Source: Nitrospira japonica (lineage in GTDB: Bacteria > Nitrospirota > Thermodesulfovibrionia > UBA6902). Taken from it: a stretch of 64,000 nt of DNA. Position 1 is the stretch's first letter; the number at the start of each line of letters is the position of its first letter. The stretch lies in contig DYJL01000007.1 of the NCBI GenBank assembly GCA_020723105.1, positions 89,984-153,983 on the forward strand. The letters are read 5' to 3'. A program made the translations under genes and the position numbers. Under the pieces are notes generated by a model that was not told the DNA's origin, searched no databases, and was given only the letters and a program-made list of their open reading frames with translations. Below, piece by piece: positions 34,969 to 63,829 of the stretch.

Positions 34969-35373
34969 TTGGAAGATTGTCTGACTAACGATATGGTTAA
35001 GAAAATATTGATAGTTGATGATTCACCTATTGCCAGAAAGATGCTGAAGAGCTGCATACCTAAAGATCAGGGGTTTGAATTCCATGAAGCATGCAATGGC
35101 AGTGAGGGGGTAGAAAAATACAGGAGCGTCTGTCCTGATGTTACCTTCATGGATTTGACAATGCCTGTAATGACAGGTTTTGAAGCGATTGAGGAAATAA
35201 TAAAACACGACAGGAATGCGCTGATTATCGTTGTTACTGCTGACGTGCAGTTGAAGGCTATTAAAACTGTTCTTGATTCAGGCGCTTATATGGTATTGAA
35301 AAAGCCTTTAAAGAAAGAGGATCTCCTTATTGCTCTGTCAAAGGCGCAGGACACGTTACAACAGGTTAAATAA
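34969..35373 (+). CDS. single-domain response regulator
   Basis: ILIVDDSPIARKML, DVTFMDLTMPVMTGFE, LKKPLKKEDL. Confidence 0.92.
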   Translation: MEDCLTNDMVKKILIVDDSPIARKMLKSCIPKDQGFEFHEACNGSEGVEKYRSVCPDVTFMDLTMPVMTGFEAIEEIIKHDRNALIIVVTADVQLKAIKTVLDSGAYMVLKKPLKKEDLLIALSKAQDTLQQVK

Positions 35374-36021
35374 ATGATGGAAACAGACAATAAACAAGTT
35401 CTATCAAGTGAAGAGTTAGAGATACTGCAAGAGATAATGAATATTGCTTTTGGGAAGTCCGCAGCGGATCTGACAGACGTGATAGATACCCATGTAGTTC
35501 TTAATGTTCCATTTATCAATGTAATGCATGTAGCTGCACTGCCTGATTATATCCGCAACTATGTAAAAGATTATGTAAATATCAGTATCGTTGAACAGCG
35601 TTTTTGGGGACGGTTCAGGGGAGACGCCCTTTTGGTATTTTCTTCAGGTTCAGGTAAAGAGTTGATAGGAATGTTGCAGCATGGAGAAGGTATGAGTCTG
35701 GTATCTGATCATATTGAAATATTAGAAAGAGAAACCCTGATGGAAGTTGGCAATATCCTTATTGGCGCCTGTGTCGGCAAAGTAGCAGAGCTGCTTAAGG
35801 ATATCGTTACCTATACGCCTCCAGTGATTGTATTGGAGAGACATTATGAAGATGCATTTTCTGAAAATGACTTTGCCCCTGATCAAACGGCCATTGTCCT
35901 GAAAACAGATTTTAATTTTAGTGAAGGCAATATCAGCGGCTTTTTATTTCTTGTAACAAGCAACGATTCCATTCAATGGCTCAAGGATGCTTTGCAAATT
36001 TTTATAGAACAGTATGAATGA
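35374..36021 (+). CDS. CheC-like phosphatase
   Basis: Two CheC-type motifs: LEILQEIMNIAFGKSAADLT and RETLMEVGNILIGACVGKVAELL. Confidence 0.82.
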   Translation: MMETDNKQVLSSEELEILQEIMNIAFGKSAADLTDVIDTHVVLNVPFINVMHVAALPDYIRNYVKDYVNISIVEQRFWGRFRGDALLVFSSGSGKELIGMLQHGEGMSLVSDHIEILERETLMEVGNILIGACVGKVAELLKDIVTYTPPVIVLERHYEDAFSENDFAPDQTAIVLKTDFNFSEGNISGFLFLVTSNDSIQWLKDALQIFIEQYE

Positions 36022-36920
36022 TATTACAGCAGATATTTGACGCAATCAATTTAGGGCTTGTCATTCTTGACAGGGATTTGAAGATTCAGGAATGGAACCG
36101 GTGGATGGAAGTCCACAGCGGTATCGAAGCTGATAAAATAAAAAACTCCTCCATTTTTGATACCTTTCCTCATTTAAACAATCCAAAATTTACAAGAAGC
36201 TGCAAATCGGTATTTACTTTTGGGAACTTCTGTTTTTTTTCGCAAAAACTCCATCACTATCTGTTCCCCTTCAAAACAAAAAGTTTATCCGAAATTAATT
36301 TTGAATATATGCAGCAGAGTTGTGCAATGGGACCTTTGCGAGATGAAAACAACAATATAAAATATCTTTTTATTTATGTTCAGGATATGACAGAGGTTGC
36401 CATATATGAACACAAGCTTGTAGAAATAAACATGAGGGACGGGCTTACCGGTATTTATAACAGAAGATTTCTGGAGATAAAACTGAAGGACGAGTTTAAC
36501 AGATATAAAAGATACGGGGGTGTTTTCAGCATCATTATGTTCGATATAGATTATTTTAAAAAAGTAAATGATACATACGGTCATCAGTGTGGTGATTTTA
36601 TTTTGAAGTCTGTCAGTTCAAGAGCTTCCTCACTCATCAGAAATGTAGATTATCTGGCCCGCTACGGCGGAGAAGAATTTTGCTGTGTGCTTCCCGAGAC
36701 TGGAATTCATGCGGCCCTTGCAGTAGCAGAACGTTTCAGGACAGCCATATTACAGCAGGAAAACAATTTTGACAACAATGTTATAAAAGTCACTATAAGC
36801 CTGGGGGTTGCTGAATTTCAGAAAGATATGGAGTCTGATAGCACGTTACTTAAAAAGGCAGACGAAGCTCTTTATAAGGCTAAAAAGGAAGGGCGCAACA
36901 TGGTTGTTGTAATGCAGTGA
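36018..36920 (+). CDS. PAS-GGDEF diguanylate cyclase
   Basis: ARYGGEEFCCVLPETG; start overlaps CheC stop. Confidence 0.93.
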   Translation: MILQQIFDAINLGLVILDRDLKIQEWNRWMEVHSGIEADKIKNSSIFDTFPHLNNPKFTRSCKSVFTFGNFCFFSQKLHHYLFPFKTKSLSEINFEYMQQSCAMGPLRDENNNIKYLFIYVQDMTEVAIYEHKLVEINMRDGLTGIYNRRFLEIKLKDEFNRYKRYGGVFSIIMFDIDYFKKVNDTYGHQCGDFILKSVSSRASSLIRNVDYLARYGGEEFCCVLPETGIHAALAVAERFRTAILQQENNFDNNVIKVTISLGVAEFQKDMESDSTLLKKADEALYKAKKEGRNMVVVMQ

Positions 36921-55786: not shown

Positions 55787-56827
55787 CTATACCGAATTGA
55801 TTATCTCGCCGGCTATTTCATCAATAGGGACTACCTTATCAGCGACTCCGGCTTCTACGACAACTTTTGGCATTCCAAAGATAACACATGTCTTTTCACT
55901 TTCAGCGATGGTCCTGCCGCCTGAATTTTTAATTTCCTTCATTCCTTTCAATCCGTCATTGCCAAGGCCTGTCAGGATTACACCGAGAACATGTCCGGAG
56001 AAGTTTTCTACAGCCGAAAGCATAAGCACGTCAACGGAGGGTTTGTAAATATATTCTCCCTTGTTTTCGGTTATTGAGATTGTTGTTTCTGTTATCTTTT
56101 TCCGGAGAATGCTCATATGTCCTTTCCCCGGCGCTATGTATACAACTCCCTTTCTGACGGACTCGCCATTTTCTGCCTCTTTAACTTCAATGGCGCTCAG
56201 TTGATTAAGCCTTTCTGCAAAAGGCTTGGTAAAGGATGGCGGCATATGCTGTGCAATAAGAATGGGAACAGGAAAGTCTTTTGGTAAATTGCAGATTATA
56301 TTTTGCAGGGCTCTCGGCCCGCCTGTTGAGGAGCCGATGGTGACAACATTTATTTTTCTGTGAGCTGTGTAATCAGTGGTTGTGGGCATCTTTAATTGTT
56401 TGGGGCGGGATATTCTTTTGAATAAAGGCAAGCCTTTTTTGCCGATATTCTTGATTTTCTCTATCAGGATTTCCTTGATTTTAACTATATTGATGGAAAG
56501 GTCTGATAAATTCTTTGGAATAAAATCCACGGCGCCAATGTCCAGGGCCTCAAGCGTAGTTTTTGCGTCATCTGTAGTCAGAGAGCTTACCATTAGGACC
56601 GGAACCGGATTGTTCGCCATTATCTGTCTTAAAGCCTCCAGGCCGTTCATCCTCGGCATTTCTACGTCCATGGTGACTATATCAGGTTTTAATTGAGAGA
56701 CTTTTTCAACAGCCTCGATGCCGTCCCGGGCCATGCCTATAACCTGAATTTCCGGATCTGCGGTTATCATGCTGGCGAGGGCATTCCTCATAAAGGCTGA
56801 ATCGTCTACGATCAGAACTTTTACCAT
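55787..56827 (-). CDS. cheB: chemotaxis protein-glutamate methylesterase CheB
   Basis: REC VLIVDDSAFMRNAL; GSSTGGPRALQNI, AQHMPPSFTKPFAERLN, VILTGLGNDGLKGM. Confidence 0.97.
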   Translation of the reverse strand: MVKVLIVDDSAFMRNALASMITADPEIQVIGMARDGIEAVEKVSQLKPDIVTMDVEMPRMNGLEALRQIMANNPVPVLMVSSLTTDDAKTTLEALDIGAVDFIPKNLSDLSINIVKIKEILIEKIKNIGKKGLPLFKRISRPKQLKMPTTTDYTAHRKINVVTIGSSTGGPRALQNIICNLPKDFPVPILIAQHMPPSFTKPFAERLNQLSAIEVKEAENGESVRKGVVYIAPGKGHMSILRKKITETTISITENKGEYIYKPSVDVLMLSAVENFSGHVLGVILTGLGNDGLKGMKEIKNSGGRTIAESEKTCVIFGMPKVVVEAGVADKVVPIDEIAGEIINSV

Positions 56828-57276
56828 TACGCTGTTTCACCCATTAACCTGTCTATATCAATGAGTATGATGAGTCTGTTCTCAAGCTTTGCTATTCCTT
56901 TGATGAATATGCTGCCCGTACTTGAGGCCATTGGAGGGGGCGGTTCTACGACATCTGACGGTATCCTCAACACCTCAGAAACAGAATCCACAACAAGACC
57001 GTATGTTACGCCCTGAATATCCATAATTATTACCCTTGAAGCGTCATCGCTGTCTTTCCCGTGAAGACCAAATTTTTTTCTCAGATTTATTACCGGGATG
57101 ACTTTGCCGCGCAGATTGATTACGCCTTCCACAAAGGCCGGGGCATTGGGCACCCGGGTGATTTCTGTTATCCTGTTTATTTCCTGAACATTAAGTATAT
57201 TGACGGCGTATTCCTGTTTTTCAAGCGTAAAGGTAACTAACTGTAAGACCTGTTCACTTACCATGGTACTTTCCAT
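56827..57276 (-). CDS. cheW: chemotaxis coupling protein CheW
   Basis: EYAVNILNVQEINRITEITRVPNAPAFVEGVINLRGKVIPVINLRKKFG. Confidence 0.96.
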   Translation of the reverse strand: MESTMVSEQVLQLVTFTLEKQEYAVNILNVQEINRITEITRVPNAPAFVEGVINLRGKVIPVINLRKKFGLHGKDSDDASRVIIMDIQGVTYGLVVDSVSEVLRIPSDVVEPPPPMASSTGSIFIKGIAKLENRLIILIDIDRLMGETA

Positions 57277-57319: not shown

Positions 57320-58564
57320 TTAAAAATCAAGATCATCGAGGAGCGATTCAACATCAGACTGTGTAACTGTTTCAGCCGCTTTTGCTGCATGTTCAACTAT
57401 TTTATTCTGCTCCGCAATAATGCCGGCTACAGTTTTGTCTGAATCTGTCTTGATCAGCGCTCCGAACTTGGTTATCAACCTCAGGAGCTCAACCTCAACA
57501 TTATTTACAAGGTCAATGACTTTTTTGATGGTCTGGCCTGTGATGTCCTGAAATTGCTGGGCTGTGAGAATTGTGGTCATATCGTTATCCATTGAATCCT
57601 TGAACATCCTGAGGTATGTAACGGCTTCTTCAGGGCCTTTGATTTCTTCAAGATGTTTCAGAAAATCATTTGATTCCTCAAAATACCTCTCTACGATCTC
57701 CATTGTTTTATTGGCAGCCTCTTCCGTCTTATTGATTACCAGTTGAAGGTTATCAACGGCGTTAGGGACATCATTGTTTGTGATTCTTTGCAGGCCGTTG
57801 TTAAGGGAGCCTTTAAACTCCTCAAGAGAGTTATGAAGCCTTCTTGTTATTTTTCCGAGTTCCTTGAAAAGGTCGCTGTCTGTGGCAGATACTAATTGTT
57901 CGACAATGCCTTCCATGCGTTCATATTCATTAGCAGCCAGCGCATCCATAAAACTTAACATTAAGTCGAATAAATTGTGCTTGGGATTGTTCTTGTCAAA
58001 TTTGGCGCTGAAGAAATCTTTTGCATTGCGTAACTCTTTTACAGTGATTTTTCCGCCAATGGTGTCAATCTCACGGATGACTTCAACGTTGTTTCCATCA
58101 TCTGAATTATTTACGTTTACAATAGTGTCTTCAAGCAGGCTCATATCGTCGAGAGGCAGGATTTTTTTGGTGTTTAACAGGACAATGAGCCTGTTGCCGA
58201 TTTTCGCAACACCCTCCAGAAGGTCTGCATTATTGCTGATAAGTTTGTCGGAAGGTTCAATCTGGGTTTCATCTGCTTTTACTACGCCGGTAATACCGTC
58301 TACAATTATGCCAAAGGTTATCCGTCCTGCGGAAATGACGATTATTGTTTTGCTCGGCATTTCGCCGTTGCCTGAATGCAAAAGGTGTTTCAGGTTTACA
58401 ATTGGAATTACGGTCCCTCGGAGATTTGTTATCCCTTCCATATAAGGAGGCAGATTGGGAAGGACTGTTATGGACGGCATGGTAATTATTTCCCGTACCG
58501 TTAAGATAGGGATCATATATTCATTTTTATTAAGGTGAAAACCGATATACTGCTTCACGAACAC
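57320..58564 (-). CDS. CheW-CheZ fusion protein
   Basis: N-terminal CheW (VREIITMPSITVLPNLPPYMEGITNLRGTVIPIVNLK), C-terminal CheZ-like TILTAQQFQDITGQTIKKVIDLVNNVEVELLRLI and terminal QSDVESLLDDLDF. Confidence 0.88.
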   Translation of the reverse strand: MFVKQYIGFHLNKNEYMIPILTVREIITMPSITVLPNLPPYMEGITNLRGTVIPIVNLKHLLHSGNGEMPSKTIIVISAGRITFGIIVDGITGVVKADETQIEPSDKLISNNADLLEGVAKIGNRLIVLLNTKKILPLDDMSLLEDTIVNVNNSDDGNNVEVIREIDTIGGKITVKELRNAKDFFSAKFDKNNPKHNLFDLMLSFMDALAANEYERMEGIVEQLVSATDSDLFKELGKITRRLHNSLEEFKGSLNNGLQRITNNDVPNAVDNLQLVINKTEEAANKTMEIVERYFEESNDFLKHLEEIKGPEEAVTYLRMFKDSMDNDMTTILTAQQFQDITGQTIKKVIDLVNNVEVELLRLITKFGALIKTDSDKTVAGIIAEQNKIVEHAAKAAETVTQSDVESLLDDLDF

Positions 58565-58608
58565 CTCCCTTTTTTAAGTAGCTGCCGAAATAATAAGATG
58601 TTAAATCT

Positions 58609-58742
58609 AATACAAACGCATTAAATGTTATTACATTGTCATTGCGAGCGACTAACAGGAGCGTGGCAATCTCGTTTCTAATTTTAAGATTGCTTCGTCG
58701 TTGCATTCCTCGCAATGACGCTTTAGTTATTGCGTTTGTATT
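58609..58742. repeat. inverted-repeat element between cheA and the cheW-cheZ gene
   Basis: Perfect 12-bp ends aatacaaacgca / tgcgtttgtatt enclosing cattgcgagcg ... cctcgcaatgacg. Confidence 0.8.
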
Positions 58743-58766
58743 AAATTTCATAAATACTCTGTCGTA

Positions 58767-60698
58767 TCAGGCCTTTGTTAAGTCCATCAGGTTTCTTGAC
58801 ATGCTTGAAACGTCAAGTATAAACACAACCTTGCCGTCGCCTGTTATAGTTGCGCCAAGAACAAAGGAGGACGTTGTATCGAGACCGTTCAATATTTTTA
58901 TCACGACCTCTTCCTGGCCTACAAGTTTATCTACGGCTACACAGAACCTCTTATCTCCCATCAGTATCACGATGACATATTTATAGTCCAGATCCTCGCT
59001 GCCATTAGTGTCCAGGCCGAGAAAACTGCTCAGATCAAACAGGGGACAGATTTTGTCCCGGATAACAATAACGTTCTGCCCTGTAATGTTGGTAATGTCT
59101 TTTTTGGACACCTTCAGGGTTTCTTCTATGGGTGCCAGAGGTATTGCATATTTGGCGCCGTTGACTTCGACCATCAGGGCCTGGATTATGGCCAGGGTCA
59201 ACGGTATTATTATCTTAAATGTGGTGCCTGCATCTTTTTCTGTAGATACTTCAACATAACCGTTTAACAACGATATATTTGTCTTTACAACGTCCATGCC
59301 GACCCCGCGGCCGCTGAGCTGTGTTGCAGTCTCTTTGGTGGAGAAGCCCGGCAGAAATATTATATCTATGGCTTCCTTGTCCGGCATTTTCTGGGCTTCT
59401 TCCTCTGTCAACAATCCTTTCTCAATGGCTTTTCGCTTCAGTTTGTTGACGTCCATGCCTCCACCGTCATCTTTTATCTCAATGACAATCTGGGTGCCTC
59501 TCTGATATGTGCTGATGATAATTTTGCCTTTTGGCGGTTTGCCTTTGGCAATTCTCTCTTCTGAAGATTCTATGCCGTGATCAATAGAATTTCTCAGGAT
59601 GTGAGTCATGGGGTCACCAATATTTTCTATCACGGTCTTGTCAACTTCAGTACCTTCCCCGAATATCTGCAGTTCCACATCTTTATTGACAGAGGATGAG
59701 ATGTCCCTGACGAGTCTCGGGAATTTGCTGAAAATTTTCTGGATGGGCTGCATCCGCATTTTCATAACGGCAAGCTGCATGTCAGAAGTAATACGGTCCA
59801 GGAAAGAGACTGCTTCCATGAGTATCTCAGTCATCTGATCGTCGGTATATTTCATATCGAAGTAATTGGATATATTCAAAAGCCTGTTTCTTACCAGAAC
59901 TACTTCCCCTGTGAGATCCATGACCTTGTCAATCCTGTTGACGTCAACTCTCAGGTTCTGGGCTTTTTGTATGGAATCTTTTGCAGCCTGTATCATCTCA
60001 TTGGGTTTGGGTTCGCCCTCAGTTGCAGCTTGTGCGGTCTCTGTATTTTTTGCAGTGCCGTTATCAGGAGACCTGGGAGCTTTGGAAACTTCAGGAATTT
60101 GAGGTGTTGCCGCAGTTATCTGTGTTGTCTCCGGAGCTTTGGATGTTTTCTGAGAAGCTTCATCTGGTTTTACTGCTGTATCGGGTGACTTTTCTGCGGT
60201 GATTTTTGCAGATATTGTCTTTGAAGCTTCGGGCTCTTTTAAGGCCTGAGCAACCGGTGCGTCAGACTGCTCTATCTGTTCAGATGGAGCAGTATCCGGG
60301 GCGCCGGATATTGCAGCCTTTAATGCATTGCCGAGTTCCTGCACCAACGGCGACACATCTTCTATAATGCCGTCTTTTTCTTTTAAATGATTAAGCAGTA
60401 ATCTGAGCATATCAATTGCTTTAAGAATTACATCCATAAGAGGCTTTGACAAGGTAATTTCCTGGTCCCGGAGTTTCTTCATTATATTTTCTGCTGAATG
60501 AGCCACATCAACTATCAGCTGAAATCCGAGGAAACCTGCAGCGCCCTTGATGGTGTGCATGGATCTGAAGATATCGTTGATAAGGTCTGTGTCCTGCCCT
60601 TTTTGCTCCAGCTCGACAAATCTTGGTTCTATCTTATCAAGAGATTCTTCGGCCTCTGTAATAAATTCCAGAGTTATTTCTTCCATTTCATCGTTCAT
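58767..60698 (-). CDS. cheA: chemotaxis histidine kinase CheA
   Basis: Hpt SMHTIKGAAGF, low-complexity linker, VMDLTGEVVLVRNRLL, GRGVGMDVVKTNI, CheW-like C-terminus. Confidence 0.97.
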   Translation of the reverse strand: MNDEMEEITLEFITEAEESLDKIEPRFVELEQKGQDTDLINDIFRSMHTIKGAAGFLGFQLIVDVAHSAENIMKKLRDQEITLSKPLMDVILKAIDMLRLLLNHLKEKDGIIEDVSPLVQELGNALKAAISGAPDTAPSEQIEQSDAPVAQALKEPEASKTISAKITAEKSPDTAVKPDEASQKTSKAPETTQITAATPQIPEVSKAPRSPDNGTAKNTETAQAATEGEPKPNEMIQAAKDSIQKAQNLRVDVNRIDKVMDLTGEVVLVRNRLLNISNYFDMKYTDDQMTEILMEAVSFLDRITSDMQLAVMKMRMQPIQKIFSKFPRLVRDISSSVNKDVELQIFGEGTEVDKTVIENIGDPMTHILRNSIDHGIESSEERIAKGKPPKGKIIISTYQRGTQIVIEIKDDGGGMDVNKLKRKAIEKGLLTEEEAQKMPDKEAIDIIFLPGFSTKETATQLSGRGVGMDVVKTNISLLNGYVEVSTEKDAGTTFKIIIPLTLAIIQALMVEVNGAKYAIPLAPIEETLKVSKKDITNITGQNVIVIRDKICPLFDLSSFLGLDTNGSEDLDYKYVIVILMGDKRFCVAVDKLVGQEEVVIKILNGLDTTSSFVLGATITGDGKVVFILDVSSMSRNLMDLTKA

Positions 60699-60752: not shown

Positions 60753-61148
60753 TCACTTCTGTGCTGCCAGACGTTCAAATACCTTGTCCATTTTTTCCTT
60801 TAAGGTTTCTCCGGTAAAAGGCTTCACAATATAATTATTGACGCCAGCCTGTATAGCTGTAACGACCTTTTCTTTTTCTGCCTCAGCAGTCACCATTAAT
60901 ATCGGCAGGTTCTTAAGCTCCGGATCGCTCCGGACCTTTTTAAGGAGGTCCAGTCCGTCCATATTGGGCATGTTCCAGTCGCTGACAACAAAACTGAAGC
61001 CCCCGTTTTTAAGTTTTGAATAAGCCTGTGCTCCATCTTCAGCTTCCTCGATGTTGTCGTATCCAAGCTGTTTAAGGAGATTTTTGACTATCCTTCTCAT
61101 GGTGGAGAAATCATCAACGACAAGTATTTTCATCTTGAGATCTGGCAT
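60753..61148 (-). CDS. cheY: CheY
   Basis: [61 protein letters not shown], very similar to E. coli CheY. Confidence 0.96.
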
Positions 61149-61150
61149 GC

Positions 61151-61558
61151 TTAGCCTCCTTTTGCAAACATATCTCTTAATATGCTTTTTATATTATTTG
61201 CAATAGCTTCTCCGGTGACAGGCTTGACTACATAGCCGTTTGCACCAAAGGTAAAAGCCCGGTCTTTTTCTGTGGTATCGTTTTCAGTTGTGACCATTAA
61301 AATGGGAATTTCTGAGAGATTCGGGTCGGACTTTAAAGTTTTTATAAGTTCCATGCCGTCCATATACGGCATGTTTAAATCTGTCATTATAAGATTTACT
61401 TTTTCGACGCTGAGTTTCTCCAGGGCATCAAGGCCATTTTCTGCAAATACAACGGAATAACCTCTTGATTTAAGATAATGCCCCAGTAGTTTTCTCGTGG
61501 TCTGACAATCGTCTACAATCATGATTCTCATAGCAGCCCCCCCGAAAACATGAAACAT
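61151..61558 (-). CDS. second CheY-like response regulator
   Basis: [42 protein letters not shown]. Confidence 0.92.
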
Positions 61559-61586: not shown

Positions 61587-62411
61587 TTACACCTTTTGAT
61601 ATGCAACTACTTTGTTTAAGACATTCGGTCTGAATGCCCTGGTTATATTATGGAGGCTCTCGGACGATCCGATAAATAAATAACCCCCTGGATTTAAACA
61701 GTCATAAAGATGTGAGGCTACTTTCTGTTTTGACTTTACATCAAAATATATCAGTACGTTCCGGCAGAATATTGCATCTACATTGCGTAATAATTTTATG
61801 TTTCTGTCGTTAATGAGATTTATTTTCATGAGCTTGACAGTTTTTTTGACGGCTTCACTGAGGGTATACGACTGATTATTATTGGAAAAATATTTTTTCA
61901 GACAATGGTCCGGTACGTTTCTGACGGAATATGAATTGTAGACGGCTGTTTTCGCAGAATTAAGAACCCCCTCGCTTAAGTCTGAACCGTATATTTCAAA
62001 CTGTCTCGGCTGCAGGCCCTTTTCAAGAAGCATAATGGAAAGTGTATAAGGCTCCTCACCTGTTGAACATGCAGCCGACCATATTTTTATGCTCTGTGAG
62101 CCTTTTTTCTGACTGGCTATCTTTGGCATGATTTCATCAGTGAAGATTTTAAGCTGGTCCGATTCCCTGAAAAAATAAGTCTCATTTGTAGTGACTGCGT
62201 CAAACAGCCTGCCGAGTTCATTTCCGTTGCTGCTGAATTTTATAAATTTCAGATAGTCTTCAAAGTTGTTCAGGTTTCTCTCAAGCAGAATCCTTGAAAG
62301 CCTGTTTTCTATAAGATACTTTTTTGAATCAGATATATAGATGCCGCTTTTGTCATAAATGAAATCCCGTAAATCCTTGAAGGTAGAATCGGGAAGGGAG
62401 ATGTTCAGCAT
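61587..62411 (-). CDS. cheR: chemotaxis methyltransferase CheR
   Basis: TNETYFFRESDQLKIF, IWSAACSTGEEPYTLSIMLLE, FCRNVLIYFD. Confidence 0.97.
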   Translation of the reverse strand: MLNISLPDSTFKDLRDFIYDKSGIYISDSKKYLIENRLSRILLERNLNNFEDYLKFIKFSSNGNELGRLFDAVTTNETYFFRESDQLKIFTDEIMPKIASQKKGSQSIKIWSAACSTGEEPYTLSIMLLEKGLQPRQFEIYGSDLSEGVLNSAKTAVYNSYSVRNVPDHCLKKYFSNNNQSYTLSEAVKKTVKLMKINLINDRNIKLLRNVDAIFCRNVLIYFDVKSKQKVASHLYDCLNPGGYLFIGSSESLHNITRAFRPNVLNKVVAYQKV

Positions 62412-63829
62412 ACCCCCCCCAGATTATATACTGATGCATATCTCACGGCAGTTTCTTGAACATTCTTATTAAATTCACTGATGCGGGACAAAAACAGCGT
62501 TGCATTGATATTAAGAAGGGTTTTTATAAACTCATCTACGACGTCTTCGTATGTTTCGCTATGAAGCATTTTAAGGAGCGGCTCAAAGGCTGACATTTCG
62601 CAGATTTTACCAAGGGCAATAATGGCGGACCTTCTGACATGGCTGTCATAGTCGCTGATGGCTTCAATCAGGCATTCTTTGCCCTCTTCGCTTTCTATCT
62701 GGGCCAGGGAATTTATGCTGGACCTTCTTATGTCCCGGTGATCGCTTTTTGCAAGTTTTATCAGTTTAGAAACTGCTACGGGACATTGCAAGTCTCCAAT
62801 TATTTCCACAGCAAGCGCCTTGCCTCTGTATCTGAGGGCATCGTCGTCCAGAATTTTCAGAATCTGTTCGTTGCAGCCAAAACTTAAAATACCTTCCTTG
62901 ATGACCTGTATTTTCTCATCCCGGTCCGGGACAGACAATTCAAGAGAGCCTGCGATATCTATCATGTGATAAATAGCCCGTGTATCTTTCAGGATTATCA
63001 GGCCTTTAATGGCTACAAACTTTTCATCCCATTCGTCGTTTCTTAACATCTCTACAAGGTCTTCATATATGTTTTGAGAGTGTGGTACGATCCCTATCTG
63101 TACCAGGCTTATTATTGTTGCTTTTCTCTCAAAGCCGTCTGTTCTGGCAATATGCTCGCATAACGGATATTGCGCCTTTGGTGAAGCAATTTTTCCGAGC
63201 GCTTCAATAGCGGCAAATCTGACAGCTTCTGAAGGGTTATTGAGGAGAGTTACAAGAGAATCAATGGATGCTTCATCTTTTAAAACTGTGAGGGCTTCAA
63301 TGGCAGAGAAACATACCCACTCTTCGTCTCCTAACGCATCAACGAGCGCTGGTATTGCTTCTCTATGATTTAAAGCGCCCAATGTTTTTGCTGCAGCCGC
63401 CCGGACATTTGCATTAGTATCATTTTTCAGCATCTCAACCAGTTTGTCAGGATAATTACAGTACTGGATATCGTGTATAAGATCCACGGCAAATTTTCTT
63501 ACGTCATCATCTTTATCGTTTAACAGGACTGCGAGATGCGGAATGGTAAAGGTATCCATTTCTTTCAGAATCATTAATGCTGTATTCCTCAGGAAGGAAT
63601 CCTCCCTCAGGAGAGGCAGCATCATATATGCAGTGACCTCATTCTTTAAGGACGTCAGAGAGCGTGTTGCAGCATCCTGCACTCCAAAATTCTCATCCCT
63701 CAGCACCTTGATTAAGGGATAGACAGCCCTTTCATCCCCTTCTGCCAGCGCTTCAGCAGCAGAACGTCTTTTTGAAGAATCCTGGTGGCTGAGATTTTTT
63801 AAAATTCTTGCGAACTTTGCATTATGCAT
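62405..63829 (-). CDS. HEAT-repeat protein
   Basis: Repeated DENFGVQDAATRSLTSL / DTNANVRAAAAKTLGAL / NPSEAVRFAAIEALGKI units; overlaps cheR start. Confidence 0.93.
   Translation of the reverse strand: MHNAKFARILKNLSHQDSSKRRSAAEALAEGDERAVYPLIKVLRDENFGVQDAATRSLTSLKNEVTAYMMLPLLREDSFLRNTALMILKEMDTFTIPHLAVLLNDKDDDVRKFAVDLIHDIQYCNYPDKLVEMLKNDTNANVRAAAAKTLGALNHREAIPALVDALGDEEWVCFSAIEALTVLKDEASIDSLVTLLNNPSEAVRFAAIEALGKIASPKAQYPLCEHIARTDGFERKATIISLVQIGIVPHSQNIYEDLVEMLRNDEWDEKFVAIKGLIILKDTRAIYHMIDIAGSLELSVPDRDEKIQVIKEGILSFGCNEQILKILDDDALRYRGKALAVEIIGDLQCPVAVSKLIKLAKSDHRDIRRSSINSLAQIESEEGKECLIEAISDYDSHVRRSAIIALGKICEMSAFEPLLKMLHSETYEDVVDEFIKTLLNINATLFLSRISEFNKNVQETAVRYASVYNLGGVC

Follow-up and report, generated by a model that had tools for sequence, protein, structure and literature searches.

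A class-wide CheW–CheZ fusion in Thermodesulfovibrionia, probably an array-anchored CheY-P phosphatase

Introduction

The cellular position of the CheY-P phosphatase shapes the CheY-P signal. In E. coli, CheZ is localised to receptor patches through CheA-short and the residues F97/W98 at the tip of its helical hairpin, and the CheZ proteins of alpha- and deltaproteobacteria lack this docking site (PMC7750401). Modelling has indicated that responses are sharpened when a CheY-P phosphatase is placed at the array (PMC1447658). A signalling module can also be joined directly to a coupling protein, as in CheV (PMC4742279, PMC12691637), and phosphorylation of the CheV receiver domain is thought to alter the coupling between receptor and kinase.

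The window analysed here, a stretch of DNA of 64,000 nucleotides, carries a gene, cheWZ, in which CheW is fused to CheZ within a chemotaxis operon. No description of such a fusion was found in the open-access full texts, and the original prediction that it is not a described class held within that literature. A 2022 survey of CheW architectures, reportedly by Vass et al., lay outside this scope, and the architecture may be catalogued already in automatic domain databases.

Reading frame and domains of cheWZ

The cheWZ frame runs on the minus strand for 414 codons, from GTG at 58564 down to 57320, with zero internal stops, and the plus strand across 57320–58564 is stop-rich. The uninterrupted 414-aa frame of the original prediction, which stated no strand, is thus placed on the minus strand. 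A Shine-Dalgarno-like GGGAGG at 58569–58564 overlaps the first GTG and lies 5 bases ahead of a second GTG (58558), which is the start in nearly all close relatives (411–412 aa). The latter is therefore the likelier start, and the product is probably 412 aa. Residue numbers are counted from GTG 58564. The gene and its parts are as follows:

57320..58564, minus strand: cheWZ, CheW–CheZ fusion; 414 aa if started at GTG 58564, 412 aa if started at the likelier GTG 58558 (ORF, Pfam, full-length relatives)
58157..58552, minus strand: CheW domain, residues 5–136, with R49 at the position of E. coli CheW R62 (Pfam E 6.2e-32, Foldseek matches)
58022..58123, minus strand: inter-domain linker, residues 148–181, three predicted beta strands, conserved GG170–171 and E177
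57467..57982, minus strand: CheZ helical core, residues 195–366, short helices 195–227 and long hairpin 231–307/312–366, catalytic D340 and Q344
57323..57361, minus strand: C-terminal CheY-binding helix, residues 402–414, QSDVESLLDDLDF (alignment to the E. coli tail, model)

Both domains of the proposed fusion lie far above their Pfam cut-offs: CheW (PF01584) matched residues 5–136 with E 6.2e-32 and 110.5 bits against a cut-off of 23.5, and CheZ (PF04344) gave E 5.4e-32 and 111.8 bits against a gathering cut-off of 30.7, its best stretch being 322–414. All remaining Pfam matches were under cut-off, and Response_reg had no Pfam match in the protein, i.e., there is no CheV-type receiver domain. 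Searching PDB sequences with phmmer retrieved E. coli CheW (E 3e-22) and E. coli CheZ 1kmi (E 1e-8), the latter at E 1.5e-9 when the CheZ half alone was used. When the protein is aligned with 1kmi, D340 and Q344 pair with E. coli D143 and Q147, and both chains end at the same point. On the CheW side, R49 corresponds to E. coli R62, a conserved receptor-binding arginine. The claimed likeness to the CheY-P-binding tail was upheld: the end of the protein aligns with the E. coli tail, except that the window copy reads LLDDLDF, with LDF for (F/L)GF and Asp (G413D) at a position that is Gly in 63 of the 64 distinct fusions. This substitution may be a real change or an assembly error.

An AlphaFold model of the monomer, built on a 35-row alignment, has a confident barrel for the CheW part (pLDDT about 92), followed by a beta element at 148–180, two short helices and the long hairpin; after a tether modelled with low confidence, the chain closes with a helix at 402–411. 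The CheW part found PDB CheW structures (6s1k, 2ch4 and 2qdl) in Foldseek with E 3e-14 to 5e-12. Modelled on its own, the CheZ half came out at low confidence (pLDDT 65), and its Foldseek matches did not include 1kmi; the order of the monomer hairpin was seen in the full model. As this CheZ-half model yielded no helpful structural match, CheZ is assigned here from sequence.

Conservation among the fusions

Seventy fusion ORFs from fetched loci, gene copies included, and six from other families were reduced to 64 distinct sequences. Relatives from close genomes align with cheWZ from end to end where contig ends do not cut them. The catalytic D..TGQ pair is kept as originally claimed: D340, G343 and Q344 are invariant in all 64 distinct fusions, and the D/Q pair is likewise invariant in a set with standalone CheZ among its 64 CheZ rows. 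The CheW arginine R49 is present in 63/63 fusions and the final Phe in 63/64. Within the family of the window, mean identity is 67% for CheW, 68% for the CheZ core and 56% for the linker; it reaches 82% in the last helix, the best kept part, and falls to 28% in the 33-residue tether before it. Such a pattern would be expected of a protein that retains catalysis and CheY docking on a leash free to vary. The beta-strand linker (58022–58123) has its own conserved positions, the GG pair and E177, with G171 and E177 each found in 58 of 64 fusions.

Chemotaxis operon and genome context

HMM matches and synteny uphold the chemotaxis-operon setting given in the original prediction. The minus-strand order from 5' to 3' is HEAT-repeat protein, cheR, cheY2, cheY1, cheA, cheWZ, cheW and cheB; flagellar genes and a regulatory cassette lie elsewhere in the window:

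62405..63829, minus strand: HEAT-repeat protein, first gene of the cluster (Pfam, synteny)
61587..62411, minus strand: cheR (Pfam)
61151..61558, minus strand: cheY2, second single-domain response regulator (Pfam/NCBIfam)
60753..61148, minus strand: cheY1, canonical CheY above the NCBIfam CheY equivalog cut-off, presumed substrate of cheWZ
58767..60698, minus strand: cheA, 643 aa, with Hpt, dimerisation, HATPase and CheW-like domains (Pfam)
56827..57276, minus strand: separate canonical cheW, 149 aa (Pfam CheW E 7e-42)
55787..56827, minus strand: cheB (Pfam)
43–53 kb, plus strand: flagellar genes for rod proteins, FliE, FliF, FliG, FliH, FliI-type ATPase, FliJ, FliK, FlgD and FlgE (Pfam for rod through FliK; sequence for FlgD and FlgE)
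34969–35373, plus strand: receiver, in tandem with the next two
35374–36021, plus strand: CheC-like phosphatase (Pfam CheC E 2.5e-9)
36018–36920, plus strand: PAS-GGDEF protein

No P2/CheY-binding domain was matched by Pfam in the 643-aa CheA. Most named-organism loci of sufficient length share the gene order around cheWZ, and the main-group sampled fusion loci of sufficient length are che clusters with cheA, cheY and cheB. An operon of the form HEAT-cheR-cheY-cheY-cheA-cheWZ-(cheW)-cheB is conserved. The HEAT-repeat protein heads the chemotaxis cluster across the class. The gap of roughly 200 bases between cheA and cheWZ is much shorter in several relatives; here it holds a nested palindromic repeat at 58603–58748 (GTCATTGCGAG...CTCGCAATGAC), whose 106-base core is matched 15 times in the genome, with one other copy at 96% identity.

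A genome search found cheWZ to be the sole CheZ and found no CheX. The single CheC-like match of the genome is inside the window, in the receiver-CheC-GGDEF tandem and not in the che operon; the tandem is possibly a self-contained regulator-phosphatase-cyclase cassette. A second CheA/CheW set is located on contig C88 of the same genome.

Distribution in the class

An architecture survey, a check proposed in the original prediction, was made in 150 genomes of the class, each at least 90% complete, with a profile comprising part of CheW and all of CheZ. The fusion was found in 78 of them, mostly as single matches that span the whole profile. Ignoring shared ancestry and with four weak FliG matches set aside, 75 genomes have both the fusion and FliG, 3 the fusion only, 11 FliG only and 61 neither. 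The fusion-bearing genomes are therefore almost exactly the flagellated ones (75/86 with FliG). In a sample of 396 genomes of the phylum, the listed class members with CheZ have ORFs of about 390–480 aa, barring a handful that are short or lie at contig edges; the Nitrospira-like families have a plain CheZ of 200–255 aa. Every sampled class relative with a CheZ has it in fused form, and flagellated Thermodesulfovibrionia thus share the fusion as their type of CheZ throughout the class.

A free CheW occurs beside the fusion in the genomes for which every CheW match was listed, with a partial match only in G124. This rules out, in the genomes checked, that the fusion serves as the only CheW; since the normal CheW is also kept, the fusion is an extra adaptor. 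Relatives carrying organism names among the best 80 matches listed are Nitrospirota MAGs, including a Thermodesulfovibrionales bacterium. Locus L048, labelled Deltaproteobacteria bacterium SKS1.bin8, has a Nitrospirota-type fusion operon and is mislabelled, contaminating or transferred. Two full-length fusions are present in class genome G210 (on C38 and C21). No plasmid record matched 80% of the query length.

Other Nitrospirota families and origins

Outside the class, fusions were found in families f22 (L145, L147, L148), f25 (L149) and f28 (L159, L160, L164). In the f28 fusions, CheW and CheZ are separated by a weak HAMP-like stretch, and the plain CheZ of f26 (L144, L153) starts with a stretch resembling it, which suggests that CheW was lost there. 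In f30 (L155, L161, L165, L169), CheZ carries a worn CheW-like N-terminal domain, detected at E 8e-7 in L161 and 9e-5 in L155 and not significant in the others. Plain CheZ is found in the sampled members of f29, f32–f35, f38 and f26.

On the CheZ tree, built from Nitrospirota and gammaproteobacterial sequences, the class fusions and f25 group with gammaproteobacterial CheZ (100/99), and f22, f28 and f30 fall on the other side with plain Nitrospirota CheZ. A single clade of all fusions was rejected on this tree (p-AU 0.0006); a single clade of the class fusions was not (p-AU 0.33). The class-type fused CheW domains make up a single clade on the CheW tree (100/99), apart from the free CheW of the same operons, and the fused CheW of f22 and f28 are placed elsewhere (93/89), joint monophyly being weakly disfavoured (p-AU 0.07). 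Two origins of the fusion would be the simpler reading of these trees; an old fusion from which CheW was later lost in some lineages is a possible alternative.

Proposed function and competing explanations

The reading that fits these observations best, and which is held here to be probable, is that cheWZ encodes a CheY-P phosphatase covalently held in the CheA/CheW rings, so that the off switch of chemotaxis is probably anchored to the sensor array and not free-floating. The CheW domain would take the place of a coupling protein in the CheA-P5/CheW rings under the chemoreceptors, and ordinary coupling would be served by the separate free CheW. Because the genomes checked retain a free CheW, it is natural for the fusion to have a second and specialised role as an adaptor. 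The linker would hold a putatively dimeric CheZ, the C-terminal helix would capture CheY-P, and D340/Q344 would drive its dephosphorylation beside the kinase. The CheW tether may in this way give the localisation that E. coli reaches non-covalently via CheA-short. For cheWZ, entry into the ring, dimer formation, phosphatase action and the consequences for signalling are all inferred.

Counting against an anchored phosphatase are the Asp at the otherwise-Gly tail position of the window copy, the absence of 1kmi from the Foldseek matches of the low-confidence CheZ-half model, co-occurrence counts that take no account of shared ancestry, and a loss of the docking tip that is shared with unfused CheZ. 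The CheZ of the window lacks the hairpin tip, profile positions 78–110 being unmatched, and its hairpin has 96 residues between anchor positions versus 115 in gammaproteobacteria (19 shorter). Plain Nitrospirota CheZ is also shorter at the tip and some fusions (f7) are nearly full length, which weakens the idea that the fusion caused the loss of the CheA-short docking tip.

An alternative that is rather unlikely makes the protein a sensing adaptor, in which CheY-P binding or the formation of CheZ dimers or oligomers pulls on CheW and alters receptor–kinase coupling, dephosphorylation being secondary. The layout is that of CheV, a known additional adaptor with CheW and a CheY-related module (PMC4742279, PMC12691637); the fusion does stand as an extra adaptor next to a normal CheW, and the conserved beta-strand linker (GG, E177) joins both domains. 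Nevertheless, the catalytic D/Q pair is invariant and would be unneeded in a pure sensor, and with no other CheZ in the genome the phosphatase duty would go unfilled. A broader proposal, which must be called unlikely, combines coupling and termination into one feedback device, where captured CheY-P alters the coupling of its own CheW and the array senses its output; CheW–CheZ would then be a distinct adaptor class that arose more than once in Nitrospirota.

It is very improbable that the fusion serves mainly as a structural cross-linker, with a CheZ dimer joining two CheW and linking neighbouring rings or core units, and with the phosphatase as an ancestral passenger. CheZ is dimeric in E. coli (PMC7750401), and conservation is equal in the CheW domain and the CheZ core; however, the CheY-binding tail and the catalytic residues are the most conserved parts. 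Practically no credence is left for an artefact, whether a frameshift, a misassembly or read-through of adjacent cheW and cheZ. Nothing beyond the adjacency of cheW genes speaks for it, and the single-frame occurrence in 78 of 150 class genomes, in many independent assemblies and as 64 distinct sequences, rules out a frameshift or misassembly joining the two genes, a danger raised in the original prediction.

If the anchored phosphatase is real, it would join CheW and CheV as a third type of adaptor and would make it easy to test whether chemotaxis benefits when the phosphatase location is fixed. Across the class, evolution seems to have locked in the array location by a covalent link, giving a natural system in which the location of the phosphatase is hard to uncouple from the array.

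Comparison with known systems

The CheZ half of cheWZ shares with E. coli CheZ (1kmi) the catalytic D..TGQ and the C-terminal CheY-binding helix, and its predicted helical hairpin resembles that of 1kmi. Unlike E. coli CheZ, cheWZ adds an N-terminal CheW and a beta linker, is devoid of the tip that docks on CheA-short and is not accompanied by a free CheZ gene. Its CheW half has the full CheW fold (6s1k, 2ch4) and the conserved arginine of NLRG, but unlike free CheW it is fused to CheZ and forms its own clade. Like CheV, a CheW-receiver fusion, cheWZ is an additional adaptor that combines CheW with an effector module (PMC4742279, PMC12691637), the effector being here a predicted CheY-P phosphatase and not a receiver. 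As with E. coli CheZ on CheA-short (PMC7750401), the phosphatase would be located at the receptor array, whereas the link in cheWZ would be covalent via CheW instead of non-covalent via CheA-short and the hairpin tip.
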